A stretch of DNA of 64,000 nt. It comes from Buxus sempervirens. Taxonomy: Eukaryota; Streptophyta; Magnoliopsida; Buxales; Buxaceae. The stretch spans positions 39,103,829-39,167,828 of the forward strand of contig OX387187.1 of the NCBI GenBank assembly GCA_947561395.2, in the 5' to 3' direction. Below are positions 4,549 to 60,278 of this stretch, one piece after another; within the stretch, counting starts at the first letter, position 1, and each line of letters starts with the position of its first letter. The notes under the pieces are model-generated. The model worked only from the letters and a program-made list of their open reading frames with translations, had not been told where the DNA came from and searched no databases. Position numbers and translations under genes: made by a program.

Positions 4549-4815
4549 AACCGTGCTGAGTATGCGGTTTTTATAAGCTCGGTCTCAACCGCTCTGTATG
4601 TGCGGTTGCAACCGCACATATAGCACGGTTCACATCAAGGCTTGTTGCGCTGGCGGCCACGTGGCTTCGCGAATCTTCGGCCGTTAAGCCGCGTGGACAG
4701 CAATCAATTAAAGCATAACTGAATTGAACCGCCCTGTATATGCGGTTTGGTCAAATTTATACATGAACCGCACTTTGAGTGGCAGTTGTGTAGAAACCGC
4801 ACTGAGTATACGGTT
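4549..4815. repeat. AACCGY-N9-RCGGTT dyad cluster, 5' LTR of A
   Basis: Six dyads lie at about 4549, 4585, 4608, 4735, 4774 and 4795. Nearly all are exactly 21 bp with 6-bp arms and a 9-bp spacer. Spacers are mostly CTGAGTAT, CTGTATGT or CTGTATAT, in either orientation. The cluster ends about 200 bp before the TATA box. Confidence 0.85.
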
Positions 4816-5016
4816 TTGGCTGTTCCGAGGCTTTGAGAAATGGCTCGATCTCTGAGCCTTATTTACGCATATTACCTCTCTCTCAAGGACCTAAACTCCC
4901 TATTTCACCCTCCGAAACTTGCTGAATTACTCCAATTCAAGCCTTGGAGGAGAATTGGAATAATCTAGAAGGCCTTTTTGGCCTACCCTTGGGACTCTTC
5001 TACCCTTGACTTGGCC

Positions 5017-5024
5017 TATAAATA
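5017..5024 (+). promoter_or_regulatory. TATA box, 5' LTR of A
   Basis: TATAAATA followed by GAGGGG. The same octamer is at the matching place in the A 3' LTR, in both B LTR copies, and in D and C, so it is very likely the core promoter for gag-pol RNA. Confidence 0.8.
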
Positions 5025-6607
5025 GAGGGGTCCTCCTCTTGCAAATGGCTGACAATCTGAAGCTTAGAAGCTCTGCAAGAAGAAGGAGAACCTCTGCTGG
5101 ATTGGCTACTCAACTGCTCAAGCTACTAAGGTAAGGCCTATTTGAGTTATTGCTTCCCTTTTACATTCTAGCAAATCTCTCATCTTCTACCTTTCTGTAG
5201 TGTAAGGCCTTTGTGCATCTTTGAAACCCCAAACCCCTTCTAAAGTACCTGGGAATCCTCTCTAGCCGTAAAACGTGAAGAGAGAGCCTGGGGAAAAGGA
5301 AGGTGGAATGGATCCTCTAGGTTTAGAACCCTCAAATGATGAAAAGCATGCTATATGGTTATTTTGAACCCTTGAATGCTTCTCTGATTTTATTTTATAT
5401 TTGGAGAAGATGTGAATCCATGCTCTCAGTAGCCATGGATTCCAACCTTCTCATAGAAATGAGATTTTCCACACTTTCACACTCACTTTTCATTATTTTC
5501 ATCAAATAGGCTAGATCTTGGGCTTTCCATGTTCAATATGGAAAATCTGAGGTCCTAGGCCTTAGAATGAGTTTTAGAACTTCATGAGAGGATTTCTTGT
5601 TGATTTTGAGGTTTTGGTCGAATCCACATGCACTGGTTTCCATGTTTCCTCTTCAAAAACCTCAAAACAGGACAGATCTGTGGCCTGTCTTGGAAGACTC
5701 ATAGCTTCATCCTCCGGATGAATTTTTGAGTGATTCCAAAGACATGTGATAGATGGATGTGTCTATTTAATATCTGGAAATTTTCGTCCACTTCCATGTA
5801 GCCAATTTTTGACACCATCTCTTCAAAGTTTGTAAGACAGTTCAGCCCAGATTGCTGAACTTGCCGCTTTGATGGTGCACTATTTGCTCGGTTTGAACCC
5901 GTTTCCTATGATTCCAGTTTCTGAGTTTTCTTTGAGAAGTCTATTTTCATTTCCAACAAGTTTCAGCAGATTTCAATCTGTTTTGTGCCTTGGGTGCTCA
6001 ATTGACTCAGAGATGCTCGCTAGCATGGTCCAGAGCAGATCTGTGGTCTTTTAGGCCTGTTCAAGAGAGCACACAAGTCACATCCGGATAGAGATTGGTG
6101 TGAGGTTTTTTGCTTTGGAAAGATGACACTACATACTTCCTCCTTACCAATTTTTATGGGTTTTTATTGAGCCAAACTCCACGAATAGGACTTTGAAAAT
6201 GCCTACTTAACGCTTTTTCTGAGTTATAACAGCAGATTTTATATGAGGATTTCTCTCTCGTTTTGAATCAGATCGAGCTGAATTTTTTACTATATACTCT
6301 ACTATATACCAGTTTTCAAATGGCTTTGGTTTCATTGGATTTGGATTTAAATTGAGTAAGTTGTGGTCTATCAAAGCTTTCAAGCTCTTTTGACCTAATC
6401 TCTCCAGATTTGCTTTAGCTTGATTTCCTTCAATTTCACTTTGATTTTTCTTCACTCACGAAGTTTTAAAAATGATAGATCCACGAAGAGAGTCTAAGTT
6501 CATTAGATTTCTCATGTGGAAGGGTCACACACATTGTGCTTGTCAAGCACCACTTTGTTTATTTTACTAACAAATGATTTAAAGTATAAGCAAGCATGTG
6601 GTAACCG

Positions 6608-6771
6608 TCTTAGACGGATGAGCGGGGGTGCCTAATACCTTCCCCTGCTCATAAATAATTCCCCGTACCCAATCTCTGGATTTTTCCTTGTATTAGAGCT
6701 ACTTGGGCTCTATTTAACATCTATGAACCTTTTGGTGTCCATTCACACCTAAAAATGGATGGTGGCGACTC
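6608..6771 (+). promoter_or_regulatory. U5 stem-loop and PBS-like motif of A
   Basis: An imperfect inverted repeat (ATGAGCGGGG facing CCCCTGCTCAT) encloses GTGCCTAATACC. The same plan recurs in B and C with different bases in the arms. About 120 bp further on, TGGCGACTC (6763-6771) repeats the first nine bases of the primer-binding site at 6842. Confidence 0.6.
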
Positions 6772-6841
6772 TTAACATTTATTGATCCCCGCGTGACGAT
6801 AGTCGGAAGTCATCCGAGATGACGAAACCATGTCTCACGAC

Positions 6842-8451: not shown

Positions 8452-8538
8452 AACCGTCCTGAGTATGCGGTTGTCTGCATTTTCGCTGCAACCGCATGTA
8501 TCATACAGTTTGAGCCAGACCGTCCTGAGTGTGCGGTT
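8452..8538. repeat. AACCGY-N9-RCGGTT dyad cluster, leader of A
   Basis: Three 21-bp dyads start at 8452, 8489 and 8518. The first and third have spacers CCTGAGTAT and CCTGAGTGT, the same as in the LTR cluster of this element. Confidence 0.8.
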
Positions 8539-9257
8539 TTAAGCCGAAATCCCATTCTGGCCTTGCTAATTAAACATTTCTGGGCCCTTTCATCCCTAAG
8601 TTATATAAGCAAGTGTGCAGTGATTCCAAATAAGATAAATGGCATTTAAACCATTCCAAATCCACCCAGATCAAGAGATTAAGGTCATTTTGAACATATT
8701 CATATAAATTGAGCAAATTAATCCAACTCAAAGGTAAAAATGATAAAATAAAAGTTGGCTCAAACCAAAAATCAAGTCAAGCACCAAATTTTGGGGTTTA
8801 AGCTCATGTTAGGCTCTTTTTACCTAATTTGAACACCTAATCCATCTTAATTGAAGTAAATGATTAAAAGAAAATTGGTTCAAATAACCAACCTAATCAT
8901 ACTTCAACCTCAAGAATTAAACTTGGAAATCACAATAAGCTTCCAAAGCATGTTTTTAGCCTAAAGTGGGATCTGAATCGAGAGAAGCTCAACTCTTTTA
9001 AAATGGAGCAAATTCCAACCAAAAATAAGAAATCTTTAAGCATAAAGTATTCAAACTTTTAAGACTTCAAATCATAGGTCATTTGGAAACCCTTGAATTC
9101 TAAGTCAAATCATTCAAAATTTTTTTTTTATAAAAGAAGATTTCAAATAAATCATCACCTTAAAGGCAAATTGAGTCTCTTTTTAACTCAAAACACCTAA
9201 GGGAAAATCAGAAATTTTTTTTAGGCATCTGAAAGCCTTGTAATTTCAGAAAATCAA

Positions 9258-9881
9258 CTCATAGGACTCCTGGAAGCCTGAAATTCCAGATTTTTCCAAA
9301 ATCTTCATAGGCCTTCTAAAGCCTGAATTTAGAAACTCATAGGACTCCTGGAAGCCTGAAATTCCAGATTTTTCCAAAATCTTCATAGGCCATCTAAAGC
9401 CTGAATTTAGAAACTCATAGGACTCCTGGAAGCCTGAAATTCAAGATTTTCCCAAAATCTTCATAGGCCTTCTAAAGCCTGAATTTAGAAACTCATAGGA
9501 CTCCTGGAAGCCTGAAATTCCAGATTTTTCCAAAATCTTCATAGGCCTTCTAAAGCCTGAATTTAGAAACTCATAGGACTCCTGGAAGCCTGAAATTCCA
9601 GATTTTTCCAAAATCTTCATAGGCCTTCTAAAGCATGAATTTAGAAACTCATAAGACTCCTGGAAGCCTGAAATTCCAGATTTTTCAAAAATCTTCATAG
9701 GCCTTCTAAAGCCTGAATTTAGAAACTCATAGGACTCCTGGAAGCCTGAAATTCCAGATTTTTCCAAAATCTTCATAGGCCTTCTAAAGCCTGAATTTAG
9801 AAACTCATAGGACTCCTGGAAGCCTGAAATTCCAGATTTTTCCAAAAACTTCATAGGCCTTCTAAAGCCTGAATTTAGAAA
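9258..9881 (+). repeat. 78-bp hairpin array, leader of A
   Basis: Eight units start at 9258 and repeat every 78 bp without length change. Each holds CTGGAA-GCCTGAAA-TTCCAG and a second weaker dyad AGGC-N8-GCCT. Because 78 is a multiple of three, a 157-codon ORF stays open on the minus strand; I take that as a by-product. Confidence 0.9.
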
Positions 9882-9969
9882 ATCATAAGCCCTTGGAAGC
9901 TTGAGTGATTCCAAGTCCTGATTTGTCTACAAACTTTTACTGTAGGCACATCATCTTTTGTGGGATATG

Positions 9970-10125: not shown

Positions 10126-10397
10126 ACAAAATTTCTGTGGTTTGATCTTTTTCGTATCAATTGCCACATTTTAATAAGGTTATTTTAACCATAAATACAA
10201 AAAGCCAAAAAATATGAATACAAAGAAAACCCCCAAACTCATGTTCACCAAGCTTACATGCATGCATGCATAGGTGTGTGAAATTGATTTAAAGGGATAC
10301 TAATATTTTTCTCTTTTGTCTTTTTCTTTTACTAAGGTACTAAGTTTCCACTGCAACCATTGCTCCCCGACGCTCTCAGAGATTAAAAGCTGCCACC

Positions 10398-12890
10398 ATG
10401 AACCCTGCTGAAGAACAATCTACTGTTTCGGCTGAGGCCTTTGCTCAACTGCAAGAGCAAGTGGCAGGGATGACCAAACTATTGGAAAATTTGCTGGCCA
10501 ACCAAGCCGCTCAGGCTCATGTGCAGGCGCAACAGGCGCAGGCTCAGGTTCACCAGGCTTCATCATCCCACAATGCACCACCACAGGCTCCACCCCAGAC
10601 TGAACTTCCACCACCAATCCAACCTATCCCACCTCAACCTGAACTCTCTCATCCAAACCCCGAGCCTATCCTGATCCGGGAGGAGGAATCTGAATGTGAG
10701 AGGGAAAAGGAGAAAGAGAAGGAGAGACTGAGGGTAGAAGTGGAGAGAAAATTCTTGGACAAGCTGGAGTCCATTCAAGAGGAATTGAAAGAAGTGAGAG
10801 GGATCAACACGTTGGGTGGTACCAACTTTCAAGATCTCTGCCTGTACCCCGACGCATGCTTACCGGCCAAATTTAAGTGCCCGGACTTTGAGAAATATGA
10901 CGGCACCGGATGCCCAATGAGCCATCTGAAGCTCTACTGTGGGGCGTTGTGCAAATTTGGCTGGGAGGATGGCATCCTGATCCAGCTATTCCAGAGAAGC
11001 CTAACTGGGGCAGCCTTGAGATGGTTCGCAACTGTGGACCATGGCAGAATCAGAACGTGGAAGGACCTAGCTGATGCTTTCCTTGCTCAGTACCGTTTCA
11101 ATGCTGACATCGTTCCAGATAGGTACGATATGATGAAAATGAGTAAGGGAAGAGATGAGACAGTCAGGCAGTATGCCAAAAGGTGGAGAGAAGCCGCCTC
11201 TCAAGTCAGGCCTCCCATGATGGAGCCAGAGATGGTTACCACCTTCATTGGCACACTGGGGCATCCATTTTACAATCACTTGGTGGGTCAGGTTACCACC
11301 AGTTTTGCTGCCCTAGTGTTGGTCGCGGACCGGATTGAAGATGGAATCAGATCCGGGCGAATCCACGACCATTCTGCCACGACTCGTCAACAGGAGCCAA
11401 CTTTTGATCCTTCTGCCCAGAAGCAGAAAAATGGGGCAAGAAGGAATGGAGGAAAGAAAGAAGGGGAAGTAAACATGGTACAACCCCAACCACCGCAAAA
11501 ACCCATCCAAATCAATATTGCTGCACCTCCACCCAGTCCGGTGCAGCCACAATCGACCTATCAAAACCCTCTCAACATTAATGTTCCTTAAGCAGCAATG
11601 CCCAACCAAAAAAGGGTATTCTCAAAAGAGGAGAGAGACGCTTGGATGGCGTCCAGAAGGAGCAGGGTCCTTTCCCCTCTTCCTGTAACCCCATCCCAGC
11701 TATTGCCATCTTTGTTAAACGCGGGGTATGTCACCCTGAAAGAACCAAATCCGAAGTCTTCAAAGGGAAAGAATTTCGATCCCTCCACCACCTGTGAATA
11801 CCATATGGGTGCACCAGGACACCCTACGGACAGGTGTTGGCCATTAAAACATGCCATCCAGGATTTGATCGATCAGGGAACCCTGTTGTTTAACACGGCT
11901 GCACCCTCTCCCGCCAGGACTGACATTGGTCAGAATCCTCTGCCCCAGCATAATGGGGCTGGTCCTTCCAATTTTGTAGGGACCATCTCTTCTAGACCTA
12001 GGACGTTTGATCCCTCGCAATTAATTGCGCCAATAGGGACGTCCGTTAGGGTCTATTTTGACCAGGAAGAGATAGGGGAACAAATCAATGTCATTTCTAG
12101 AAATAATGGAAGTGGCAAGACTGCAGAGGACATTAATGCCTCTTTAAACCGGGCCGCTTCTCTCATGGCCCAGCTTAATGTAGCCAAACCCCCTCTCATT
12201 ATTAATTGCAACCAGGCTGTTGCTTCCCCACCTACTCCATCATCCAAACCATCTTTGGTCATTAATTATGACCCCACCACTGCTTCAATTACGTCTGTTT
12301 CTTCTCAGACCTTAAAATCCTCTCAACCCAAGGAGCCCAGGCAATCTTCGCCTCTGGTTATTGAGGTGCCTTCTTCTAACCTTAATCCCACATCAACTCC
12401 TGCACCAAGGTCTCATCTCCAGCCCTTGGTATTTAACGTTCCTAAACCCTCCTATTCAGAAACTGCTGTACCTTGGAATTACAGCGAGGGTTATACGACC
12501 ACTATCCCAGTGGCCAGGAATCAGGGTCAGGAGGAGGTAAACCTCATGACAAGATCAGGGAGGTGTGTGGAAGGAAAAGAGCAAGAAAAGAAAGAGGCAG
12601 AGCAAGTCCAGAAAGGAAAGGCCAAGATAGGGGAGGACACCCCCCAGGTCGACAGTAAGGAGGCAGAAGACCTCCTAAAAATACTGAAAAAGAGTGAATT
12701 CAATATTGTCGACCAATTAACCAAGGTCCCTGCCCAGATATCAATACTGGGATTATTGATTAATTCAGAAAAGCATAGGGACTCATTAATGAAAGTACTC
12801 CATAGCGCCCACGTGCCCAAAACAATTGAGCCAAACCAACTCGGCACGATGATCGGTCAGATTTTATCTCACAATGTAATAAGCTTTTCA
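10398..12890 (+). pseudogene. Gag region of element A
   Basis: The start at 10398 lies in a favourable GCCACCATGA context and matches the C start at 61583. The N-terminus is Q/P-rich with a charged coiled-coil-like stretch. It is followed by GGTNFQDLCLYP, a core gag domain (LRWFATVDHGRIRTWKDL, then RQYAKRWREAASQV) and a CHHC zinc-knuckle-like motif (CEYHMGAPGHPTDRC near 11793). A long, poorly conserved linker with MTRSGRC leads into the protease. This is the structural protein of the element's particle. It is a fossil; the region as a whole has one or two breaks. Confidence 0.85.
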
Positions 12891-12899
12891 GAAGGTGAG

Positions 12900-14330
12900 A
12901 TAAGCCCTGGCGGATGTTATCACATGGACCCTTTGCACATCACTGTGCTTTGTAAGGATAACATGATAGCCAGGGCCCTAATCGATAATGGGTCAGCCTT
13001 AAACGTCTGTCCCCTAGTAACATTCGTGAGGCTTGGTTTGGACCAATCCAAGATAAAATAGAACGGGAGGATAGTGAGAGCTTTTGATAGCTCCAAAACA
13101 CACTCCCTAGGGGAGATTGAATTGCCGATTACCATCGGACCGAATATCTTTAATATCACATTCGAAGTGATAGATATTCCTGCTGCCTTCAATCTACTTC
13201 TGGGAAGGCCGTGGATCCACTCAGCTAGGGCTATACCCTCTACTCTTCATCAAAGAGTAAAATTTATAAAAGGCCAGAAGGTGATAACGGTCATAGCCGA
13301 GAGTCTAGTCCCTCCCTTCATACCACCTGATGTACCTTTCATTAATGTAGAATTAACGGCAGACAAAATTGCCTTTCACTCTTTTCAGTTTGAGACAGTC
13401 AAATTCATACCTGGGGGGTGTCTAAAAAAGAATGAGAAGTTGACCTGCGCCAATAAGATGGTGGAGAAAGTCTTAAAAGATTGCAATTTCCACCCAGGAA
13501 AGGGGTTGGGCATTAACCTGCAAGGAAGGGTGACGCCCATAGAGGCACAGAGGCTAGTCCCACGGGTAGGACTAGGGATGAAAATGAGAAGATGGAAGAG
13601 GGGACCACAGAAAGAAAATGAGAGGGAAAAGAATCAAGGAAAGTTCCCTCATTTAAGGGAAACTTTCCCGAAGCCCTCTCATACCATTCAATTGGCTCCT
13701 CCTACAGATTCCTCCAAGCCTCCGTATTTTAATGATAACCCTTTTAGAAAACCTTTTACCTCAGTCCTTCTACCTTTTACCCCATTTTTCCCCACTTTGG
13801 CACCCAAAGCCACGGGTGAGCCTGAGCCACTGCCACAAGAGCAGCAGGATTTCACAGAAGAGACAGGGGCATTCTTTGCAATGACAGAGAATGAAGGAAG
13901 AGAGAAAGCAGAAGAAGAGGTTCCTTTTATCGACTGGGCCTCAATCAAAATTCCTGATGAAGTCACCTCTGAACTCAGCCCCGAAGCAGAAAAGGGCAGT
14001 TTTTCAAATCCGGTAATGATGGTATCGGATCAAGAGTTTGAGGAGGAACAGGTTTGCACTATACCACCTGTTCCAGAGGGCTTTGTACTGAAAAATTGGG
14101 AAGAGATCCCTTTGACACTTGAGGCTGCATATGGTTGGCAATCAGCTGCGGCCTCCAAAAAAAAAACTCCATTAGTGGATTGCCCTTTTCCTGAAGGTTT
14201 TAATGAACCTTCATCTTCAGGAAAAGCCTCTTTAGAAGGTTCTCAAAAAACCCAAAAAGATTTTTCAATTTTTTCTAGAAAATCTAAAGCTTTCAAAATG
14301 GTCCAGACTGCTTATGAGCCATATATATAG
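12900..14330 (+). pseudogene. Protease and G-patch region of element A
   Basis: A pepsin-like retroviral protease is shown by ALIDNGSALNVCP (active-site D with GSA) near 12975, then LGRPWIHSARAIPSTLHQ near 13200. About 70 residues on there is a G-patch-like segment (HPGKGLGINLQGRVTPI, then GLGMK, 13490-13580). G-patches are known next to the proteases of some retroviruses. The rest is an acidic, proline-rich spacer before RT. It is a fossil with about two breaks across the gag-to-RT interval. Confidence 0.75.
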
Positions 14331-14384
14331 ACTGAATTAGAGCAAGTTGAATATGAATTCGATCTCGAGCTCGACTTCGACCTA

Positions 14385-36680: not shown

Positions 36681-36709
36681 AAACTTGCGCTATAATTCTT
36701 ACTATTCTC

Positions 36710-47873: not shown

Positions 47874-47974
47874 TGTAAGCACTTCATTTTTGTGCTCCCA
47901 GAAATGCAAACCCTGCTAAAAAGTCAAACCTGGAAGGGTCGAAAAGTTGACCTTTTGATCAAATGAAATTTGGC

Positions 47975-48280
47975 GGCCTTGATCTATACCATTGGATAAA
48001 TAATCCCGACACGGTTCCAGCGCAACCGAGTTTGCAGGAATCGGAGTCCGGATAAAGGTTCTGCGGGCGGTCAAACTCAAGGAAAAGCCAAGAGTTGACT
48101 TGTCCTCGATTTTCGTGCCAAATACCTTACTTTAGCCCAATGGATAGAGAATCCCGACACGGTTCCAGCGCAACTGGGTTTGCAGGAATCGGAGTCCGGA
48201 TGAAGGTTCTAAGGGCAGTCAAACTTAAGGGAAGGCCAAAAGTTGACTTTTCCTCGGAATCCGTGCCAAGTGCTTAGCCC
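47975..48280 (+). repeat. Tandem repeat of about 145 bp in solo LTR 1
   Basis: Two clear units, plus a worn third, each contain CCCGACACGGTTCCAGCGCAA, GTTTGCAGGAATCGGAGTCC and GGTCAAACT. The inverted counterpart is at 55040-55580. Confidence 0.75.
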
Positions 48281-48545
48281 CATGTCATTAAATAGAGGGC
48301 CCCGATACAAGTTTAGCACAATTGAGTTTGCTCGAATCGGAGTTTGGGTGAAGGAGATATGATCTGTCGAAGTTTCCGAGTAGCAAAAACCGGAAACTGC
48401 ACACGTGGCAGCCAACGCAGCAAAATATCTCAGGGACTAAATCTTAAATATAAAAATTTCGTACGGGCGATCCGTAGATATCCGAAAGGGTCAAATCGGT
48501 CGAATCGGTCAAGTTGAAGGGCAAATCCGTAATTTTTTCGATCGG

Positions 48546-48789
48546 TATCCGGTCACATATACCGGATACACTGCCTATCCTTCATGGCCGGACTTGAAGG
48601 CCGGATACATAAAGATATTCGCGCGAAATTCGCGCCACTTGGCCGACAGATTCGCGGCGGCATTAAATTTTGAAATGATTAAGTCATGTATCCGGCCTGA
48701 GTTGCCGGATACAAAGGGAGGCTAGTGTATCCGGACTTGAAGTCCGGATACGAGGAGGCCTTAGTGTATCCGGCCTGAGTTGCTGGATA
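48546..48789. repeat. TATCCGG-N9-CCGGATA dyads upstream of TATA, solo LTR 1
   Basis: Four or five 23-bp dyads, with spacers TCACATATA, CCTGAGTTG (twice) and ACTTGAAGT, plus a worn one. The TATA box is at 48802-48809. Confidence 0.85.
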
Positions 48790-48801
48790 CATTATTTTTT
48801 C

Positions 48802-48809
48802 TATAAATA
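48802..48809 (+). promoter_or_regulatory. TATA box, solo LTR 1
   Basis: TATAAATA about 930 bp from the LTR start, directly after the dyads. Confidence 0.7.
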
Positions 48810-49913
48810 GCAAACCAGCAGCTCATTTCCGGGGTTGATCTTTTCTTGGCTGTTTTGGGCTTCCCTTTCCCACTTTTTCTCACGAAGTCTCTGCCTCCCT
48901 TGCCCTTCCTAGCTTCATCAATCCTCCCAAAAGCCATCCAAGCCTTGGCCTTCTCCTTCCTTTTCATTTCCCGGTTGAAGCAAAGAGGAGAGCTTGCTGT
49001 TGCTGCAAGAAAGAGCTATTCCGGCCACTGTCCAGCCTTCAGGAGGTGCTTCCAGCTTGTTCCAGGCTCTAAGAACCCTCAGGTATCACTACTCATCACA
49101 TTAGCTTCCACATATATTAAATCTGTGATTTTCTGAAAATATGTCTGCCTAGCTTCCCTCTTGTGCATGGGGCCATGTTCCCACCTTGTTTAAACACGTA
49201 TTTACTTTCGTTTCATGACATGAGGGTCACCCCACGTGAGAAACCCACGTAGGTCCCTTTAGGGGAGGACGGGAGTTCGTCTCACGTGCACATATTAGTG
49301 TCATTCAATTGCTGTTATGGGTTTTGTTTCAAGATTTTTAAAGGAGCATGTTCCTTCTCATCCCATGATCCATTGTATCCCTGTTTAAGCCCCTCTTCCC
49401 TCTCCCTTCTGTATATTTTTCGTAGGTTAAAGTAGAAGGTCTTAGGTTTAGATGATTGCTAGGAGGTGGACAAAATTGTATGTTAGATCATTGGTTCACC
49501 TTGGTGGTTTCCCTGCATGTATTAGTTCTTCGCCTTGTTGATTTCCTCACCTTTCGCATGTTATGCATTTCTTTTTTTTTTCTTTGCTGATTAGTTGATA
49601 AGGAGTGCTAGACTTCCTTAGTCATACCTATTTGTTCAAGCATGATAAAATTGTCCTCCCACATGTATGCATGTTTTGACCGATCATGGGAGCATGTCCC
49701 AAGTCCTGGATTCGAAAAGGGTTCTCCATGAGCCCTTGTTGTGAGCTAGGAGGAAGGTTTGGAAACCACAGCAGGGACACCTTGGTCCCTGCCATGCAAG
49801 TACACGTGATCACATAGAGGTAGAGGCAGTCCGGATGCCTCTTTCCCCCATTGGTTTCGCTGCAAAGTCCCAGAAGGAGAAGCCAAAAGTGGCTTCTCCC
49901 AAACCTGTACGTA

Positions 49914-50820
49914 TGTGGGCCCATCCGAGGGCCCACCTGACTCCTAAAACCTCCATGGGAGCCCCTAGGAGCCCCTGGGATCAATCCCGAAAGGCCAAAG
50001 CCCAAAAAAGCCCATTCCAGGGTGATCAGGTAACTCAGGCCGGATCACCTAGGGCCTTAGCATATCCGGCCACCGAGGCCGGATCACCTGTGGAACTCGT
50101 GTATCCGGCCTGAGTTACCGGATACACACAGAAGCATGTTTTTTTGCATATTCTGTTGTATTGCCGAATTCCATGGTAGTTTGTGTCAAAATCATTGAAC
50201 CAGCAGGGTTTCCGGGCCACCCGGAAACCCAAGATGGGACTTGGACCGACTGGTCCAGCTTTGCACGCTAGTGGGCCTTCCAACGGGGCCCACCAAGCCC
50301 AACACACAGAAGCATGTTGATTAAACAATTAAAACGAAATGAACCAATTGAACCAGGCGGGCCAAGCCCAATGCGGCCCGCCAGTACCTTGTGATATGAG
50401 TGAATGCATAAACTGCCTGGTTTGGCCGGGACCGTGGGCTAGGGCCTGTCGGGCCCACCAAAAGCCTGCTAATCAAGCCAAGTTAGGGTGTAAACCCTAG
50501 ACTTCGAAGCACTGGGCCTTCAAGCCCGAAGCTTGGATCACGGGCCCCAAGCCCAGTGACCAGCTCACTTTGGCAAGGTTAAAATAAGATAACACAAAAT
50601 CACTTGGCCACCATGTGGGCCCACCTAAGGGGCCCACAAACCAATCCGGCCCACCACTTGCCTGAAAATAACTTAGTAATCAAACTTAAACCCCCATGTA
50701 AAATCAATACAGTAACCAAAGCCCACAGGGCCTACTAGGATAGGCAGAGGCCCACAAGGGCCCACGGGTTGGACTAAGCCCACCAAGGCACACTAGTGGG
50801 CCTTCCAACGGGGCCCACCC
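49914..50820. promoter_or_regulatory. GGGCCCAC-rich region, solo LTR 1
   Basis: At least a dozen TGGGCC or GGCCCA hexamers, including the palindrome GTGGGCCCAC at about 50614. Class I TCP factors are known to bind GTGGGNCCAC and site II elements TGGGCY. Similar density occurs at 52400-52990 of solo LTR 2. Activity is inferred only. Confidence 0.5.
50022..50124. repeat. TATCCGG-type dyads downstream of TATA, solo LTR 1
   Basis: One perfect 23-bp dyad (spacer CCTGAGTTA, ending 50124) and two variants with GATC in place of GATA on one side. In solo LTR 2 the equivalent site holds GTGAGCGC repeats. Confidence 0.75.
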
Positions 50821-51171
50821 AATCAGACCCAGATTATCTAAATTAATCAAGATAAAATCAACTAAAGGGACCCACACCACTTAGGTGGTCCCACAAAGAC
50901 TTAACTAAATCGCATGCTGGTTTAGGAATCGGGTGAGAATCATATAGGAAGAGCTGACTAAAATCAGGGAACCCACGGGACCCGTCATCCGACGGGGTGG
51001 ACTGGGGTGTCTACGGACTTCCCCAGCCCGCAACCGAGAACCAACCTTAGAATCTCAAGCCGCAGACCCAAGAGCCTTAATAGGCAAGATTAGGGACCAA
51101 GGTGTCCGCCTGCACCCCATCAGGCGGTGGCGACTCCGATTACCCCGTGCCGCGTTTCCCACACGCGCACA

Positions 51172-52058
51172 AATGGTTTTAAGGTCGGAAGAGATGAGGT
51201 AACAATATCTCACCTACAGTTTGCTAATGATACCTTGGTGTTCTTTGAAGCATTTTAGGATTAAATGATTTGGTTGTAGGGTATATTGCACACATTTCAT
51301 ATGGTATCAAGTTTGAAAGTTAATTGGGAGAAGAGTTCCATAGTGGGATTGAATCTGGGGGAGGAAGAATCATTGTCTTTTAGTCGGATTTTAGGTTGTC
51401 AGGTGGGTTCTTGGCTGATGTTGTATCTAGGTCTTCATCTAGGTGTGTCCCCTCGTAATGTCAGTTTTTGGGAGCCGGTCATTGAGAGAGTTGAGAAGAG
51501 ACAGGCATTATGGAAGAGGAATTACTTATCTTTAGGGGGTCGGATAATCCTAATTAAGGTTGTGCTTGCAAATCTTCCGGTTTATTTTATGTTTTTGTTT
51601 AGGATGCCTAGAATAGTTGTGGACATTATTGAAAAAGCTCCAAGGGATCTTTTGTGGGAGGGTGGGGGAGAAAGAAAGACTCATTTAGTATGGTGGGAAA
51701 ATGTGTTTGGCAAGGAAGATGGGAGGAATTGGTTTGGGCAAGATAGCCCGTCGAAACTCTTTTCTTTTAGCTAAATGGTTGTGGCGCTTCAGCACAAAAA
51801 AGAAAAGTTTGTGGCATCAAGTGATCACAAGCAAATATGGAAGTAATGATAATGGATGGTTCATAAACTTGAGGACACGACCTCCGGGAAATTACCTGTG
51901 GAAGGCCATTATGAGACTAGCACCTTTGTTTTACGCCCATGTTGGATTGAACATTGAATCTGGCTCATCGGTTCATTTTTGGCATGATCAGTGGTGGGTT
52001 AATCAGACGTTATCTAGCTAGTTTCCTCGGTTATTGTCCCTTGCTCTCCATCCTAATG
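51172..52058 (+). mobile_element. L1-type LINE, piece 2: RT end and linker
   Basis: It continues piece 1. It shows VTISHLQFANDTLVFFEAF (the RT active-site block, FADD-like but ANDT here), LKVNWEKSSIVGLNL, YLGLHLGVSPR, LSLGGRIILIKVVLANLPVY, RDLLWEGGGERKTHLVWWENV and GIGLGKIARRN. Several stops and at least one frameshift are present. Solo LTR 2 ends this piece. Confidence 0.85.
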
Positions 52059-53194
52059 CTTCTTGTGCGCGCGTGGGAAACGCGGCACGTGGGTGATTCG
52101 GAGTCGCCACCGCCTGATGGGGTGCAGGCGGACACCTGGGTGCCTAATCTTGCTTATTAGGGCTTTTGGTTTGCGGCTTGAGATTCTAAGTCTGTTCTCG
52201 GTTGTGGTCCGGGGAAGTCCGTAGACACCCCGGTCCACCCCGTCGGATGACGGGTCCCGTGGGTTCCCTGGTTTGAGTCATCTTCCATTGGTCTCACCTG
52301 ATTCCTAATCCGATATGCAATTTGGTTAAGTCTTGCGGGACCACCTGAGTGGTGTGGGTCCCTTTAGTTGCTTTTATCTTGATTACTTAGGTGATCTGAG
52401 TCTGGTTGGGTGGGCCCCGTTGGAAGGCCCACGGTATCCTTGGTGGGCTTAGTCAAGCCCGTGTACCCTTGTGGACCTCAGTCTAGCCTGAGAGGTCCTT
52501 TGGGCTTTGGTTAGTTCAATTGATTTTACTTTAAGTTCAGATTTGAAGATTAAGTGTTTTTCATGCACAAGTGGGCCGGACCGGTTTGTGGGCCCCTAAG
52601 GTGGGCCCACATGGTGTCCAAGTATTTTTTATCGGATTTATCTTTTTAATTTTGCCAAAGTGATTTGGACACTGGGCTTGGGGCCCGGAGTCCAAATCTG
52701 GGCTTGTAAGCCCAAGTTACCGAAAGTTAGGGTTTGCACCCTTCCTTGGTTCGATTGGTGGGGTTTGGCGGGCCCGGTAGGCCCTTGCCCTTGGTCTCGG
52801 CCAAACCACGCAATTCATGCATCAATTTCACATAACAAGGCTCGGGTGGGCCGCATTGGGTTTGGCCCGCCCGGTTCAAATTGTTCATTTTACTTAAGTT
52901 ATTTTAATGGCATGCTTTGGTGTTTATTGGGCTTGGTGGGCCCCGTTGGAAGGCCCACTGGAAGTCAAGTTGGACCGGGAGTCCAAGTCCCATGTCGGGT
53001 TTCCGGGTGACCCAGAAACCCTATTGGTTTATCCGGTTCGGTTCAGAAATATCATTCACATCTAACAATAATCACACAAAAAGACACAAGATAGACACTC
53101 TGTCAGAAAAAAACTGGCTCATTGTGCTGGGTCCAAGGTAAAGGGTATTTTTGGAATTTTCAAAAAAAATAACAATTCGGCCTGTTTTGGACCT

Positions 53195-53465
53195 GGCGCT
53201 CACCTCCTGAAGTGAGCGCCAGGTGGGCGCCAGAATCGGGCGAAATTTTGACCTGGCGCTCACCCGATACCAGGTGAGAGCGAGCTGGGCGGGAGGTGAG
53301 CGCGAGATGGGCGGGAGGTGAGCGCGAGATGGGCGCGAGAATTTCACCTGGTTTTTAGTGGGCGCGAGCTGAGCGCCAGGTGGGCGCCAGCTCGGCGGGA
53401 AGTGAGATGAAAGGGGCGCCCACCTCCTAGGTGAGCGCCAGGTGGGCGCCAGATGGGCGGCAGGT
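53195..53465. repeat. GTGAGCGC-type repeat cluster, solo LTR 2
   Basis: It opens with the dyad GGCGCTCAC-CTCCTGAA-GTGAGCGCC (53195-53220) and continues with many GAGCTGGGCG and GTGAGCGCGAG units. It is the same type as 1301-1571, and the sequence that follows is also alike in F. Confidence 0.8.
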
Positions 53466-54671
53466 CACTGCAATTTTCAACTCTCTGTTTTTTTGAGATC
53501 TCCAACTCTGGCCGATTATTTTAGGTCTGTAACTGTTCCACTAGCCTCCCAACATGCTCAGAACACCTCCCAACTAATCTTGGATTTAATCTAACTACAT
53601 TTTATTTCAAGTTTTGAAAACCCAGAAAACTTACAATACAACCATGCTTTCAAAATACTTCACGAATAACATGCCCAGAACACTTCCCCGGGCTTCGACC
53701 ACTCCCCAGAAGTTACTTAAACTTGTATTAAAACTAGTCTAAGCATGATTCATGCTTCATCCCACAACCCAAAAGAAAACAAACCCGATAAAAAAACTGG
53801 TACAGATGCATTAATATCTTAAAAAAAAGGGGGGTGATGGGAGCATGCTTACAGGGGCACCACAAGGAGCAAGCATCATAGGCAGGGGGTTGGGGGGCAT
53901 GTTAGCAAGTACAGCACAATAAAAACAAAAAAAACAGCATGCAGACATTACATGCATTTTCCTCCAACCGGCTGGACCTCAAGCATGCACACTAATATCC
54001 GAAGGCACGCTAACATCCGAAGAAGGGAAGTCGAAGGGGGTTACAGGGATACAAAAGACTTGTTTGAAGCGAGGGAACAGACTCCCTTTACTTTACTGAA
54101 TGATCAACCAAAAAAATAACTCTCCAGATAGTGGCCAGGGTGGTCTAAAGTGGGATGGCCAAGCTTCCTACATCATCATGGGTCTCCCTTACCCTCCGAG
54201 ACCTCCGTGTCACCGAAAATACAAGAACATGCATGTTACAGTAAAGAGAAAGAACAAGCTCGATAGCATGCTTAGATAACTCCCATATTGATATATGTGA
54301 AATAAAAATAGATGGCGAACAATACCTGAGGTTCTGTAAGCTCACGTGCAGGGTGGAGGCTCCTCCTTGAGACGAATCCTCCTTGAGACGAAAGTGCTGG
54401 AGCTTCCTTCCTTTGAACCTCCAACAACAACCTCCCCTTTTTTAGGCTTCTGCGATAGTGGAGAAGACAAAGGGGAAAAGGGGTGATCAGGCGGGTGGGG
54501 TGTTCTGGGAGCTCAGGAGTCAATGAGGGATGAGCCCAGAGGGAGCTCGGACGAAAGAGGGAAGGCAAACAGAAGTCTTGACAGCCAAAACTTTTTAACC
54601 AAAAAATCTTCCAACACTTAGCTTTTTTTTCCGCAAAAAATCCAACCCCTCTGCGCGAAATGCCGCGCGGC

Positions 54672-54678
54672 TTATATA
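54672..54678 (-). promoter_or_regulatory. TATA box, solo LTR 2
   Basis: It reads CCTATATAAG on the minus strand about 980 bp from the LTR start, matching 48802 in solo LTR 1. Confidence 0.65.
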
Positions 54679-54689
54679 GGCCAGAAAAA

Positions 54690-54795
54690 AGGGGGTGCCG
54701 CTCACCTTGGCACCCAGCTCGAGGTGGGCGCAAACCCGCTCGCCACATCCGCGCGAGCGGCATAATGATGAAAAATCATTAAATGCCGCCGCGCG
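54690..54795. repeat. GC-rich repeats upstream of TATA, solo LTR 2
   Basis: Short units such as GCTCACC, GAGGTGGGCGC and CGCGCGAGCGGC lie at the site where solo LTR 1 has TATCCGG dyads. Confidence 0.6.
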
Positions 54796-55039
54796 TCGGT
54801 CGAAAAATCTAAAAAAATCAGATTTAGTCCCTGACAATTTTTGGTAAAATCCGATATTCTCGGATTTTTACAGATTTAATCCCTGGGATATTTCGAATGT
54901 TCGGATATTTACGGATTTGATCCCCGAGATATTTTCCTGCGCAACTCGCCACGTGTGCAGCTTTTTGCCACGTGCGCAGATTGCCGGTTTTGCTGCTCGG
55001 AAATTTCATCAGCTCATATTTTCTTCATCCGGACTCCGA

Positions 55040-55580
55040 TCTGGGCAAACTTAGTTTCATTAGAATCGTATCGGAGCCCTCCATCCCCTGACCTAGGGGT
55101 AGGCCTCCGGATCGGATTTTAGCAGAAAGTCAACTTTTGGCTCTGCTCAAGTTTGACCGCCCGCAGAACCTTCATCCGGACCCCGATTCCTGCAAACTCA
55201 GTTGCGTTGGAACCGTGTCGAGATTCTCTATCCAATGACCTAGGGGTAGGCCTCTGGATCGGATTTTAGCAGAAAGTCAACTTTTGGCTCTGCTCAGGTT
55301 TGACCACCCGCAGAACCTTCATCCGGACCCCGATTCCTGCAAACTCAGTTGCGTTGGAACCGTGTCGAGATTCTCTATCCAATGTTATAAAGCAAGGTAC
55401 TTGGCACGGAATTCGAGGAAAAGTCAACTCTTGGCTTTTCCTTAAGTTTGACCGCCCGCCGAACCTTCGTCCGGACCCCGATTCCTGCAAACTCAGTTGC
55501 GTTGGAATCGTGTCGAGATTCTCTATTCAATGAGATAAAGCAAGGTGGCCAATTTTCACTTGATCAAAAAGTCAACTTTT
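55040..55580 (-). repeat. Tandem repeats of about 145 bp in solo LTR 2
   Basis: Three to four units spaced about 145 bp apart (near 55127, 55270, 55420, 55568), each with AAAGTCAACTTTTGG-like and CCCGATTCCTGCAAACTCAG sequence. Confidence 0.75.
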
Positions 55581-55659
55581 CACCCCTTAGGGTTTGACTT
55601 TCTATCCAGGGTTTGCATTTTTTGGTTTTTTCGGGGAGCGCAAAAATGAGGTGCTTACA

Positions 55660-56187
55660 CTTCTATGGCCGATACCTTGCCTTGGTCTTCTTTTGGTTCA
55701 GATTGGAATCTTCCATTTAGGAGGAATCTTTGTTCTCTAGAATTGGAAGAGATAACTTTGCTCATTGATGGTTTAAAGGATGTGATTCTTGATCCCCTAG
55801 GTTTTGATAAGATATTATGGTGCCTTCTGTCCATTAGATTGTACTCTTGCTAATCTTTTTTCAATTCGGTCACGCATAGCTTGTCACATCTGAGGGTGTC
55901 CTTTTCGGTACATCAACTATGGAAGCCTGAGGTTTCTCTTAAGATTAAAGCTTTCTTATGGACTGCCATCTTATACAGGATAAACACGGTTGATCAAATT
56001 CAAAGATGGAAAAGGATTGCTTTATCCCCGTATGTGTGCTTTATGTGTATGGAGGTTGGCGAGATCATAGATCATCTTTTTATTCAATGTCAGTTTGCTA
56101 GTATTATTTGGATGGGTTTGTTTGAGATGACCGGAGTCTCTTGGGTGTTGCCATATACTCTTAGGGCATGGTTTGAGTAGTGGCGAG
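55660..56187 (+). mobile_element. L1-type LINE, piece 3: C-terminal zinc-binding domain
   Basis: It shows the plant L1 reverse-transcriptase zinc-binding region (zf-RVT): WKPEVSLKIKAFLWTAIL, RINTVDQIQRW, CFMCMEVGEIIDHLFIQCQF and WMGLFEM. Stops are present upstream. The 3' end and tail are cut off by the 5' LTR of element C. Confidence 0.85.
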
Positions 56188-56276
56188 TGTAGACACCCCA
56201 AATTGCACAATAATCATCAAAAATCATTATCTCCTTGAAAGCCAGCACAAAATTGAAGAAAGTAAGTTTTTACTTG

Positions 56277-56415
56277 TATCCGGCAACTCAGGCCGGATAC
56301 AAGTACTCTCCTTTGTATTCGATTGAAAATACAGGATACAAGCAATCCTTAGTATATCCGGCATTATATCCCGGATACATTAAGACCCTTGTATATCCGG
56401 CCTGATATGCCGGAT
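56277..56415. repeat. TATCCGG-N9-CCGGATA dyads, LTR of C
   Basis: Four dyads: three intact (spacers CAACTCAGG, CATTATATC, CCTGATATG) and one worn at about 56319. Confidence 0.85.
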
Positions 56416-56572
56416 ACATTAGTTTTGCTCAAAATTAGGGTTTTCCGAGAGTTTTCACTTATTACCATCATGTCCCTCATTAAATGAGGGGAAATTTTAG
56501 AAACAGCCCTAGGGTTAAGGTTGGTGGGCTCTAGACATTAAGTTGTGTCTACCATCAACCCTAGCCTTTGCC

Positions 56573-56580
56573 TATAAATA
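56573..56580 (+). promoter_or_regulatory. TATA box, LTR of C
   Basis: TATAAATA followed by GGAGGCTCC, placed as in B. Confidence 0.75.
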
Positions 56581-58477
56581 GGAGGCTCCTCCTCAAGCAA
56601 ATGGCCAAGAAGTTGGAGATCCAAGAGCTCCGAGTGAAGAAAGGAACCGCTACCGGATTGCTTCCAGAACCCCAAGTAAGCCTCAAGCCTCTTCTTTATT
56701 TTCTTAATTTTATATTCTAGATCTAGATCTCTTCTTCTACCTTTCTGTAGAATAAAGCCTTCTATGTGTATGAAAACCCTTTCCTGGCTCAAAGTATCTC
56801 AAGACTCCCCCTAGCCGTAAAACGTGAAGGCGGGATCTAGGAGAAACGAGACTGGGGATTGATCCTAGTGATAGAACCTCTCTTGCATAAGCCTTTTGAA
56901 TGATTGTAAACCGTTCCATATTCAAAGTACCCCAAGATTATCTTGAAGAACCGTGTTTAACGGGGAGAGAGAACTAAGGGAAACAATAATGGAACGGAAC
57001 CCTAGGTTGTTTTAGAACCTTATTTTGATGAATATGAATGCATGCTATGTTGTTATATTGTTCTTGTATGATTTTTCACACTTGCACATACATAGCACGA
57101 TTTTGGCGGGATAGGCTCACATTTGGGGATTTATTACATTCGTTGTGATAAATCTGAAATAAATGGCCTCAATCAATTCTAGAATGTCTTTGAATGTTTT
57201 TTAAAGTATTTGGATTCATCTTGCACGAATTGCACACACTTTGTCACAGATTTGAATATTTTTCTCCAAAAAAGGCTTTACTTGACAGTAACTGTACCCT
57301 GACTTCGGACACTCATAACTTCATCATCCGGATGAATTTTGGAGTGATTCTAGAACCATGGGAAAGGTGACGCTGTCTAGTTTATGCCTACCAAATTTCA
57401 TTAATTTCTATGGAGCAGATTTTTGACACTATTCTGCCGAAGTTGAGAGGTCATTTCAGGTCAAACTGTTGAACCTATCACTTCGAATGGGCGCCATTTA
57501 CTGGTTTTAAATCCGATTTGAGTGATTTTTGTTTCTGGGAACTCCTTTATGAGTCTATTTTTAAATCCAATTAGTTTCATAATTTTTTGATTTAAATTAT
57601 GTCGTGGAGAGCAGATTTACTCAGAATTGCTCAACACCATTTTTCTGGGTTAATCTGTGATCCTTGCGGCCAGTTCGGGAAGTCACCCAAGGCACATCTG
57701 AATGAGTTTTCATATGAGGCTAGTTTCCTCTGAAAGATGGCCATACAGACTTTATTCATACCAAATTTCATTGATTTTTATTGAGCTGATTTTTCTAGAT
57801 GATTTTCCAAACTTGCCTATTTGTCACTTTTGATTTTCTCCGGCAGCAACTTTAAAAGAGCCATCACTCTTAGAATTTCAACCAGATTTAATTGAAATTT
57901 TGCATGAGACTATTGTTTACCCTAATCTTTTAAATGGATTTTGTTTGATTTAATTTAAAATTGGATTTGATTGATTGCAAGACAAATGGCATTGTTTTTT
58001 ACCAAATTTCCCGGATTTGCCTCAACTTGGTTTTGTGCAACTTTTGCTTTGATTTCCATCTTTTTGTGATATTGCAGAAATGATATTGACATAAAAGAGG
58101 ATCTGGAATTCATTTGGCTTTTCATGTGAAGATATCATATATTTGTCCTTTTTCAAGGTTTTAATGATTTTTAGCAAGCTTTCTTATTTCTTAGCATGAA
58201 CAACACTTGGCAACCACCTTGTGTGGGTGAATGGGGGTGCCTAATACCTTCGCCCGTTCATAATCTAATCCCCTTACCCATCTCTGGATTTGATTTTCAA
58301 GTAGGGTTATTTTTACTTTAGAATTAGTCTTTTATCTCTTTTTGCTTGTTTTTAATCTTTTGGTGTCTATTCACACCTCTAAACCTTGAATGGTGGCGAC
58401 TCCCACGTTTTTACGTCGAGCCCGTGTGTTGACGGAGGGATGATCATCTTCGGTGATTTTTTCCCATGTCTCACAAC

Positions 58478-58495
58478 CGGCGACTCCACTGGGAA
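58478..58495 (+). other. Primer-binding-site-like sequence of C
   Basis: CGGCGACTCCACTGGGAA follows the LTR end by two bases and aligns with the A site at 6842. It opens CGG where A has TGG. Confidence 0.65.
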
Positions 58496-59549
58496 CTTGT
58501 GGATTTAAGCCATTTTGTGTATATTCATGCTTTTTACTTATTTTTGAATGTTTGCTATTTTGCTTATTTTATTGGGCATATTGTTGTATTTTAAATCTGA
58601 ATGGGATGTTTAAAAATTTACATGGACAAAGGCATGTATGGGTTGCTTGATGTTATCTAGAAATTTGTCTAGAAGAAGCATATCTTGAAACATGATTTTG
58701 ATGTATTTCATGATAACATGCTCTAATTTGAGTTTTTATGCCATGAGTTGAGCACAAAATTTAAAAGCATGAAATCTAGGAGTTTAATGGTGTTTTTGGT
58801 GCCTTCAAGCATGTTTTTCCTAAATTAAAACTCTTTGTATGCCATGTGATTAGTTGCTATATTTTTAGGCTCTAATTTGGGTTTCAATGCCATGTTAATC
58901 AAGAGAAATTGTGAAAAAAAAATCTGAAAGTCTAGTAGCCAATTTGGAGGTTTTCAAGGATGTTTTCCTCAAACAAAACATCTCTTGGGCAATGCATTTA
59001 GGTGCTGTATTTTTAGGCTTGGATTTGGACATAAAACAATGTCACTTGAGCATAAAAATGAAGAGCATGAAATCTGGAATTTTAGTGTACATTGTGGGAT
59101 TTTTTAAGCATGTTTTCACCAATATACCATGTCAAATAGTTGCTGAATTTTTAGGCATCAATTTGGGGTATAAGTGATACACTTTTGAGTATGAAAAATC
59201 TGGAGATTTTAGTGTATATTTTGGGGGTTTTCAAGCATGTTTTTACCATCAAAACTCTCCTTATACCATGTCAAGTAAGTGCTGAATTTTTAGGCTTCAA
59301 TTTGGGTAGAAATGGTACACTTTGAGCATGAAAAAGAGCATGAAAATCTGGAATATTAGGGAATGCTTTTGGGTTTCAAGCATGCTTCCATGGTTTAATT
59401 GTTGTTTGCACAAATAACATGTTTGTATACTTTTTGGGCATGTAATACTTGTGTGCATATTTAGTGGCTTTGGTTTTCTTGTTTGCTTGTATTTAGCTTC
59501 ATTATATTGTCATATGTGCCTTGGCTTGAAATTGAATGCATGGCTATGA

Positions 59550-60000
59550 AAAAGAGTGGCAAGGGGCTGGGACGTTGTGAATGTTACCTCAATTTTAAAT
59601 TGCACTTGAGCACTTTAAACTATTTGCACAGCCTACCCATTACCTATAGGAAGTTGAACCATGAATGTGTGTAGGTTGGTGCACCAAGGTCGTGACTTCG
59701 GAAAGCGAAAGTGAAAACATTTACCTTAGAATTTGAGTCAATGATGTGATGACAATGGGATCTGTGATTCGATTCCAGGCATCACTAGACTTGAGTTCTA
59801 AGTTGCGAATTAAGCCAAAGCCCAAAAACCATACGCTTGAAGGTGGAGAAACACGTTTTCAGCTAAAAGCACACAATTACGTTTGGGGAATTGGGTGTAA
59901 ATGTGGGAAGGCCGTTTGCATGTTTTACAGGCCAAGGTATAATATGATACCATATTGAAGGTAATACATGGTGGCAAGGTAAAGCCATGTTCTTTTCATG
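59550..60000 (+). other. Conserved leader block of C
   Basis: The counterpart of 7366-7830 in A; the strongest match starts at CACAGCCTACC (59627). Confidence 0.6.
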
Positions 60001-60177
60001 AATTTGTGAATTTTGCAATAATGATGTCCAAGCCCAATTTGGGGCAAGTTTTAGAGGCCAAGTTAAGGTGAACATCAAGTGGAAATGAAAATAACCTAAT
60101 CTGGTGAAAAAATGAGTCAAAAATGGCCATTTCGGCATTAACTGGCAACTCAGGCTGGTTAAAAACAATTCCCTTCA

Positions 60178-60278
60178 TATCCGGTATATATTGCCGGATA
60201 CAAAGGTATATGCGTGTATCCGGTCATTATTGCCGGATACAATAAGACATATCCTTATCCGGCACCTAATACCGGATA
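60178..60278. repeat. TATCCGG-N9-CCGGATA dyads, leader of C
   Basis: Three 23-bp dyads with spacers TATATATTG, TCATTATTG and CACCTAATA, at the place of the A leader cluster (8452-8538). Confidence 0.85.

Follow-up and report, generated by a model that had tools for sequence, protein, structure and literature searches.

Long terminal repeat (LTR) retrotransposons in a 64,000-nt stretch of the Buxus sempervirens genome, which we refer to in its entirety as the window, carry arrays of dyads, each made of two complementary arms round a gap of fixed length, that have a common CCG-N11-CGG core and outer bases differing between elements. We call AACCG-N11-CGGTT type A, TATCCG-N11-CGGATA type B, and dyads with GACCG or GCCCG arms the third class. 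The dyad signal is real, strongly non-random and promoter-linked. We read the dyads as promoter-proximal sites of a homodimeric activator encoded by the elements themselves, and give this reading as a whole a probability of about 0.5. Its two parts differ in strength: we are confident that the dyads are dimer sites acting on promoters, and see roughly even odds that their reader is the product of an antisense gene of the element, one matching DUF7745/plant mobile domain (PMD).

Dyad geometry in the window and the genome

Exact type A dyads occur in the window 18 times at gap 11, twice at gap 12, once at gap 15 and at no other gap from 0 to 30; exact type B dyads occur 23 times at gap 11, once at gap 15 and at no other gap in the same range. 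These counts bear out an earlier note on this sequence, which had described about 40 fixed-geometry dyads of two types. With up to one mismatch allowed, the window holds 27 type A and 26 type B dyads, whereas 100 dinucleotide shuffles per dyad type averaged 0.78 and 0.03, and none of them reached the real count. A motif-free count over each 5-base arm and each gap from 3 to 30 ranked ATCCG with gap 11 first (26) and AACCG with gap 11 fourth (18), the second and third ranks (TCCGG with gap 9 and TATCC with gap 13) being type B dyads in a shifted frame. The third class, with mixed GACCG and GCCCG arms, is found at 3886–3962, within a mixed run of AACCG, GACCG and GCCCG dyads (3830–3962) whose last three members follow at 28-bp steps; an array of ~46-bp repeats (3121–3701) adjoins it. 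The type A consensus of the earlier note, AACCGY..RCGGTT, holds in its fixed gap but not in its symmetry at the sixth base, where Y or R is chosen rather independently in each half, so that 13 of the 27 window dyads have the non-complementary pair C..A. Each half-site contains one CG and one CHG position, and methylation could gate binding.

Scans of the whole 676.5-Mb plant genome, with the reversed pattern as control, found TATCCG-N11-CGGATA at 41,458 places (control 23), AACCG-N11-CGGTT at 19,195 (control 1,691) and GCCCG-N11-CGGGC at 17,547 (control 1,289). Other gaps were covered from 12 to 20 for all three arm classes and from 2 to 10 for type B alone. Summed over gaps 12–20, type A arms gave 8,031 matches (control 7,950) and third-class arms 2,652 (control 3,785). 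Type B arms, with 225 at gaps 2–10 (control 137) and 960 at gaps 12–20 (control 162), show a small excess at gaps other than 11 as well, and many of the listed cases at gaps 12–20 are one repeated sequence. The earlier note had named equal abundance at other gaps as an outcome that would count against it; the genome-wide counts instead show a sharp peak at gap 11 in all three arm classes. Four stretches fetched round listed dyads all contained LTR sequence akin to that of the window.

The dyads are also regularly spaced. Type B neighbours less than 200 bp apart in the window follow at a 39-bp step in 15 of 18 pairs, and type A steps there are 28, 38, 39, 23, 68, 117 and 41 bp. Genome-wide, for successive dyads at most 250 bp apart that come first among the matches listed, type B steps were 39 bp in 45 of 57 cases and 78 bp in 7, third-class steps (n = 15) were 28 bp (5), 55–56 bp (6) and 109–111 bp (4), and type A steps (n = 19) were 38 bp (5), 68 bp (3), 23 bp (2), 28 bp (2) and others.

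Array positions, arm constraint and distance to TATA boxes

Dyad arrays occur in LTRs, in gag leaders and ahead of the antisense genes, with a single arm class in each of the elements A, C and E. Element A, with LTRs starting at ~4436 that are 98.8% alike over 4445–6599 and 41243–43404, carries type A dyads in its 5′ LTR (4549–4815; dyads at 4549, 4587, 4610, 4727 and 4795, and one at 4766 with gap 12 and a mismatch), in its leader between a sequence resembling a primer-binding site (PBS) and gag (8452–8538), in the interval separating pol from the 3′ end of antisense gene 1 (18275–18390), directly upstream of antisense gene 1 (20587–20704), upstream of antisense gene 2 between the end of the inserted element C and the 3′ LTR of A (40821–40919; three dyads at 39-bp steps), and in its 3′ LTR (41347–41613). 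Element C, which is nested in A on the plus strand (23421–39366) with a 5-bp target duplication AAGTG, has type B dyads in its shortened 5′ LTR (23512–23651; four at 39-bp steps), upstream of its antisense gene 1 (32178–32316; four at 38- or 39-bp steps), upstream of its antisense gene 2 (36444–36505; two) and in its 3′ LTR (37181–37320; four). Element E has type B dyads in the LTR at 56188–58476 (56277–56416) and in its leader upstream of gag (60178–60278; three at 39-bp steps). Cluster typing thus assigns 6 of 6 clusters in A to type A and 4 of 4 in C and 2 of 2 in E to type B, such that each element uses one arm class at non-homologous sites and A differs from C at every one of them. Outside these three elements, worn type A dyads lie in LTR D (44685–44952), and type B dyads occur in an LTR-like repeat of another family (48546–48789), with a second cluster in the same LTR-like region (50024–50124).

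For arm constraint, we took the dyads of one LTR and scored how well they are kept in a second, in ordered comparisons that are not independent of each other. In all 18 type B comparisons (the C LTR pair left out) the arms were kept better than the spacers, the linkers and the rest of the LTR. Specifically, the 3′ LTR of C retains 53/56 arm, 18/36 spacer, 99/127 linker and 220/276 remaining positions against the 56188 LTR; 56/56, 17/36, 85/115 and 224/240 against an LTR in the fetched locus L065; and 48/56, 12/36, 56/125 and 159/226 against one in L066. This is a clear constraint for type B. For type A it is modest: the 5′ LTR of A keeps 47/60 arm, 32/45 spacer, 158/236 linker and 282/355 remaining positions against the worn D and 52/60, 35/45, 151/242 and 409/534 against L068b, and the 3′ LTR of A keeps 39/48 arm but 31/36 spacer positions against D. 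L066 contains, within one 8-kb stretch, two related LTRs of which one has TATCCG arms and the other GCCCG arms at the matching LTR end, the arms having switched class there with their geometry retained. The 39-bp and 28-bp periodicity does resemble tandem duplication, and the dyads could be passive tandem repeats, functionless and present by descent. We find this scarcely credible, and set the plain tandem repeat aside, given that type B arms and geometry outlast the diverging spacers and linkers, that the arm class in L066 switched while geometry was kept, and that one TATA distance is the commonest in three arm classes.

We looked at TATA distances in the window and across the genome. A TATAAA lies 12–13 bp past the last dyad, away from the array, in three of 16 window clusters: the one facing antisense gene 1 of C (TATAAA at 32159–32164, minus strand, 13 bp past the last dyad), the one facing gag of E (60292–60297, plus strand, 13 bp) and 48546–48789 (TATA box 12 bp downstream, at 48802). 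Genome-wide, TATAAA occurs 5–35 bp downstream of a type B dyad in 3,702 cases (1,830 + 1,872; reversed-pattern control 1), of a type A dyad in 2,164 (1,145 + 1,019; control 37) and of a third-class dyad in 2,311 (1,111 + 1,200; control 8). We measured the distance from the end of the CGG core for the first 100 listed places per class, all on contig 1. Type B gave 15 bp (49), 16 bp (47), 17 bp (1) and others (3), 97 falling at 15–17 bp; the third class gave 16 bp (73), 17 bp (26) and 15 bp (1), all 100 at 15–17 bp; and type A gave 16 bp (36), 13 bp (24), 36 bp (15), 18 bp (10) and others (15), 42 at 15–17 bp. Among the matches listed, the commonest distance is therefore ~16 bp in all three arm classes. 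The 36-bp group of type A fits 13 + 23 bp, as for the second dyad of a 23-bp pair, and the A LTR has such a pair (4587 and 4610) with a minus-strand TATA box: a TATAAA at 4570–4575, inside the array and 11 bp from dyad 4587, which is a candidate antisense LTR promoter. Judging from this pair and its TATA box, an antisense promoter seems to be present in type A LTRs. The matches listed include 68 distinct type B dyad-TATA sequences with 42 different linkers, and in 64 of the 68 the TATA box is 12–13 bp from the dyad end. The earlier note had also pointed to CTGA or TCAG in the spacers, which is real: it is present in the dyads and has a fixed orientation in TATA-proximal type B dyads, the 68 sequences having spacer TGAG or TGAT oriented towards TATA in 33 and away in 0.

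The same data bear on whether the dyads act as RNA. Hairpins in element transcripts, with a 6–7-bp stem and a 9-nt loop, could serve for example as packaging or export signals; the arms are self-complementary, TATA-proximal spacers are palindromic in some cases, and in genome samples the position just inside the arms is complementary in 46 of 51 type B dyads (36.8 expected if the halves vary independently), the next in 30 of 51 (19.9 expected), and the position inside type A arms in 28 of 45 (20.6 expected). Despite some excess symmetry just inside the arms, we set the RNA hairpin aside as very improbable, since many type A dyads have C..A as their innermost pair and the TATA distances also speak against it. 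C..A stands at this place in 10 of the 45 sampled genome dyads in addition to the 13 of 27 in the window, and once four AACCGG dyads are removed the pair is complementary in 24 of 41 against ~22 expected; the preferred TATA distance is a feature at the DNA level, and dyads upstream of TATA precede the presumed transcript start.

Antisense PMD genes and the candidate reader

Elements A and C each have two antisense genes on the minus strand. Gene 1 of A (19118–20455; DUF7745/PMD) consists by inspection of two exon pieces and a GT..AG intron, and gene 1 of C (30329–32050) of a DUF7745/PMD exon (~31340–32050), an intron and a second exon, with a long helix predicted at the end of the encoded product. 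Gene 2, also with a PMD, is represented by its first visible exon piece in A (22530–23390) and in C (34014–34991). Inspection showed GT..AG introns in both genes, that of gene 1 at a position common to A and C (after ...LQ), so the apparent stops that break the open reading frames (ORFs) are probably intronic and the antisense genes are apparently spliced. A and C share 71% identity in exon 1 of gene 1 and 67% in exon 2, with ratios of nonsynonymous to synonymous substitution rates (dN/dS) of 0.09 and 0.15 and with dS near saturation; exon 1 of gene 2 is 53% identical with dS saturated. Antisense gene 1 is thus under purifying selection, and its splice signals have been kept between the two elements. 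The introns (within 30329–32050 and 19118–20455) have survived retrotransposition, which would be expected if splicing acts on a strand other than that of the genomic RNA; in one copy at least (L069), the intron can be read through in frame. An AlphaFold model of a gene 1 copy predicts a long C-terminal helix over residues 455–547, with a predicted local distance difference test (pLDDT) score of 72–86 over residues 481–530, that would be fit for dimerisation.

We propose that a homodimeric sequence-specific protein docks on the dyads through the common CCG-N11-CGG core and the element-specific outer bases, and that it would occupy the arrays beside several promoters of one retrotransposon, namely the LTR promoter and those of the gag leader and of both antisense PMD genes. 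With the core of the nearest site most commonly ~16 bp upstream of TATA, where a TATA box is recognisable, an activator could contact the initiation machinery, and if the antisense PMD/DUF7745 product reads the sites upstream of its own gene, the circuit would be self-activating and its operator code specific to the element. The symmetric core, fixed gap, free spacer, regular arrays and preferred TATA distance lead us to a dimeric activator site, and gene 1 is our candidate reader because of the sites upstream of it, its C-terminal helix, the purifying selection on it and the change of arms with the element. The earlier note had suggested a dimeric DNA-binding site; conserved arms, a spacer free to vary (clear in type B) and the TATA distance all fit it, while binding as such is a conjecture from sequence. 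The frequent placement of dyads at a preferred distance ahead of TATA boxes suggests self-regulation, in which elements would act on their own genes by way of such a protein, and the opposite strand may encode it. More broadly, and at somewhat under even odds, we speculate that this is a private regulatory system in which a spliced antisense gene yields a dimeric PMD transactivator, or a factor opposing methylation, that recognizes a family-specific operator, phased arrays of which flank the element's promoters, that of the antisense gene among them, with protein and arms co-diversifying between families. In co-diversification such a system would be like the VANC proteins discussed below, and unlike them it would belong to a retrotransposon and use a palindromic, TATA-phased site.

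The same arrays could instead limit transcription, as sites of an element-encoded repressor or of a host silencing factor that exerts copy-number control, which we regard as unlikely. The dyads are upstream of the TATA box rather than over it, and a position upstream of TATA is the usual place of an activator; furthermore, the elements attained tens of thousands of sites. Arrays at the promoters of a regulator's own gene would nevertheless also fit negative autoregulation, and the host PMD proteins MAIN and MAIL1 function in silencing of transposable elements (PMC7156037).

The main rival to a self-encoded reader is a host transcription factor family that dimerises on CCG/CGG palindromes and has been recruited by several retrotransposon lineages, its members corresponding to the arm classes; we consider this a substantial possibility, though well short of an even chance. 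LOB-domain factors dimerise and prefer CGG-containing sites, and our literature search on them gave nothing usable. The LTR-like region at 47873–55660, where no PMD was matched in the 10 of 16 ORFs scanned, has type B dyads beside TATA. Conversely, the outer arms vary jointly at non-homologous sites between A and C, and a fixed host factor needs none of that, although a switch between family members could produce a joint change of arms. If a host factor does read the site, then ~78,000 exact sites in one genome (the sum of the genome-wide exact gap-11 counts in the three arm classes), several thousand of them by a TATA box, would form a reservoir that could redirect host genes.

Several observations weigh against an activator encoded by the elements, and some of them favour a host reader. 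We know of no PMD genes in Sireviruses, and similar palindromes in those elements would thus point to the host. Palindromic boxes with CGG/CCG do precede both TATA and env in Sirevirus LTRs, and the box CGGTCTGACCG even has the same TCTGA centre (PMC2829016). As to gene 1, the rest of the structural model is poor (mean pLDDT 42.7), a Pfam scan of the antisense ORFs found no known DNA-binding domain, the first exon of gene 1 of C, searched against a protein database, drew 2,708 candidates and none at E 0.001, and a search of solved structures gave no match up to E 1. As to the arms, in 14 type A comparisons (the A LTR pair left out), arms came out ahead of spacers in 11, of linkers in 13 and of the remaining LTR sequence in 12, and behind in the others; arm-class concordance is based on three elements; arms are mixed at 3830–3962 and in L067; and AACCGG-N9-CCGGTT units lie 38–40 bp from type B dyads in at least four listed cases and 116 bp away in a fifth. 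All 60 fetched gene-1 loci, which include the window's own two copies (30 of 125 scored matches to the C query and 30 of 150 to the A query), do have a dyad array just upstream, of type B in matches to gene 1 of C and of type A in matches to gene 1 of A, and this speaks for the proposed reading; but these loci are close copies, 93–98% identical and so non-independent, and one of them, L049, holds both arm classes, with type B dyads elsewhere in the locus. As to the promoters, just three of the 16 window clusters, and no type A cluster, have TATAAA 12–13 bp past the array, type A TATA distances are scattered over several groups, and the type B dyad-TATA linkers share CATTAA, so that part of the type B phasing is common descent. 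Finally, binding, dimerisation, splicing, activation as opposed to repression and the identity of the reader are all things that we infer from sequence. A fixed, family-specific candidate operator beside antisense promoters lends itself to a direct binding test, in which the two or three arm classes would provide internal controls.

Related systems and structure of the elements

Gal4-type sites, CGG-N11-CCG, are bound upstream of TATA by coiled-coil dimers with a Zn2Cys6 domain. The dyads resemble them in their CGG/CCG triplets, 11-bp gap and position upstream of TATA, and differ in that the triplet orientation is reversed; Pfam found no Zn2Cys6 domain in the scanned element ORFs. A closer parallel is the RM boxes of Sireviruses (Ty1/copia; Bousios et al. 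2010, PMC2829016), such as CGGTCTGACCG and AATCCGGCTWRCCGGATT, which are reported to lie upstream of TATA and of env and to form CpG islands, with no reader found. Like the dyads, RM boxes are high-copy CGG/CCG palindromes in LTRs, upstream of TATA at a short distance and of an extra gene (env), with element-specific outer bases. Their halves, however, abut or are a few bases apart (a core of CGG-N(few)-CCG rather than CCG-N11-CGG) in a Ty1/copia setting, whereas the dyads belong to Ty3/gypsy elements and keep exactly 11 bp between CCG and CGG; the dyads also have 39-bp or 28-bp phasing, often lie ~16 bp from TATA and stand beside antisense PMD genes. The earlier note knew of no such motif family among described LTR retrotransposons, a remark to be qualified, RM boxes having been described with far shorter gaps. 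For CCG-N11-CGG dyads as such we found no report among the papers listed in our literature searches, which covered few subscription journals. Element-specific palindromic boxes in plant retrotransposon promoters are thus already known, and what is new here is their unusual geometry, together with a link to antisense PMD genes that can be tested.

VANC proteins of VANDAL transposons (Hosaka et al. 2017, PMC5735166) are element-encoded DNA-binding proteins with an anti-silencing function, which bind their motif and remove DNA methylation. As with the dyads, which are repeated in an element's own non-coding regions and differ between related families, their short motifs are repeated in the non-coding regions of one transposon family and vary between families along with the protein. 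VANDALs are DNA transposons, the VANC motifs are short and asymmetric (YAGTATTAY), and VANC has DUF1985/DUF287 domains (PMC5735166). In the antisense ORFs neither domain passed the cut-off: the sole match, to DUF1985 in a single ORF, reached E 0.036 and 14.5 bits where 35.1 would be required, and on this basis we do not claim a link between PMD and DUF1985 (VANC). The resemblance of the spacer cores GAGTAT and GAGTTG to the VANC21 and VANC6 motifs is probably chance.

What antisense ORFs do in plant retrotransposons is described as an open question (PMC11963269, PMC7264820). DNA binding has been predicted for the antisense TRP28 ORFs of Retand (Vicient 2025, PMC11963269), and maize Grande is reported to have an antisense promoter upstream of gene23 (Additional ORFs review 2020, PMC7264820). 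Both share with A and C antisense genes between pol and the 3′ LTR for which DNA binding or a regulatory role is proposed; they differ in having the TRP28 domain and family-specific tandem repeats, and the accessible portions of these two papers describe no dyads, TATA phasing or target site. A PMD is reported in 57% of Ogre elements (PMC6317226). Host PMD proteins MAIN and MAIL1 have likewise been tied to a promoter motif, ‘DOWN’, which in the MORC1 promoter reads CATGCAGTTT and, unlike the dyads, is non-palindromic; direct binding is unproven (PMC7156037, PMC9899485).

Element A has a PBS-like site at 6842 and a gag-pol region within 10344–17762 that encodes gag, reverse transcriptase, RNase H, a second RNase H (RVT_3) and integrase, in addition to its two antisense genes. 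The 5′ LTR of C is fused to sequence 3′ of the gag domain. The pol order in A and C, reverse transcriptase, RNase H and integrase, is that of Ty3/gypsy, accompanied by a Retrotrans_gag match, and pol is 90% identical between the two. Both features expected of Tat elements with an antisense PMD gene are present, namely a gag-pol with a second RNase H (RVT_3, which we take to be a mark of the Tat lineage) and an antisense ORF between pol and the 3′ LTR. The LTR at 56188–58476, probably the ‘solo LTR 1’ of the earlier note, is followed by a PBS-like sequence and, 3 kb further on, by a gag ORF, and so looks like the 5′ LTR of an element, E, that would continue beyond the window edge. The leaders of A and E contain 78-bp tandem repeats (9256–9887 and 60572–61407) with different consensus units and an equal period (2 × 39); we set these arrays aside as unrelated to the dyads, their consensus units containing none. 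The region at 47873–55660, which belongs to another family, consists of two inverted LTR-like repeats (starting TGTAAGCACYTC) with 147-bp subrepeats; the scan of 10 of its 16 ORFs of at least 90 amino acids gave no Pfam match above cut-off and one weak match, and it still bears type B dyads with a TATA box 12 bp beyond them.

Two further observations concern exchange between elements. An internal stretch ahead of the 3′ LTR (window 44102–44651; L065 5219–5768; L066 4143–4702) is 92–93% identical between elements, and the LTRs of the same three elements are just ~67–73% alike with different dyad arms, a combination that suggests module exchange among elements. When the L065 array at 5049–5188 is compared with that of the window at 37181–37320, the L065 spacers resemble those of the 56188 LTR (29/36), whereas the rest of the LTR is nearer to C (224/240), and the dyad array of L065 may have been swapped independently.

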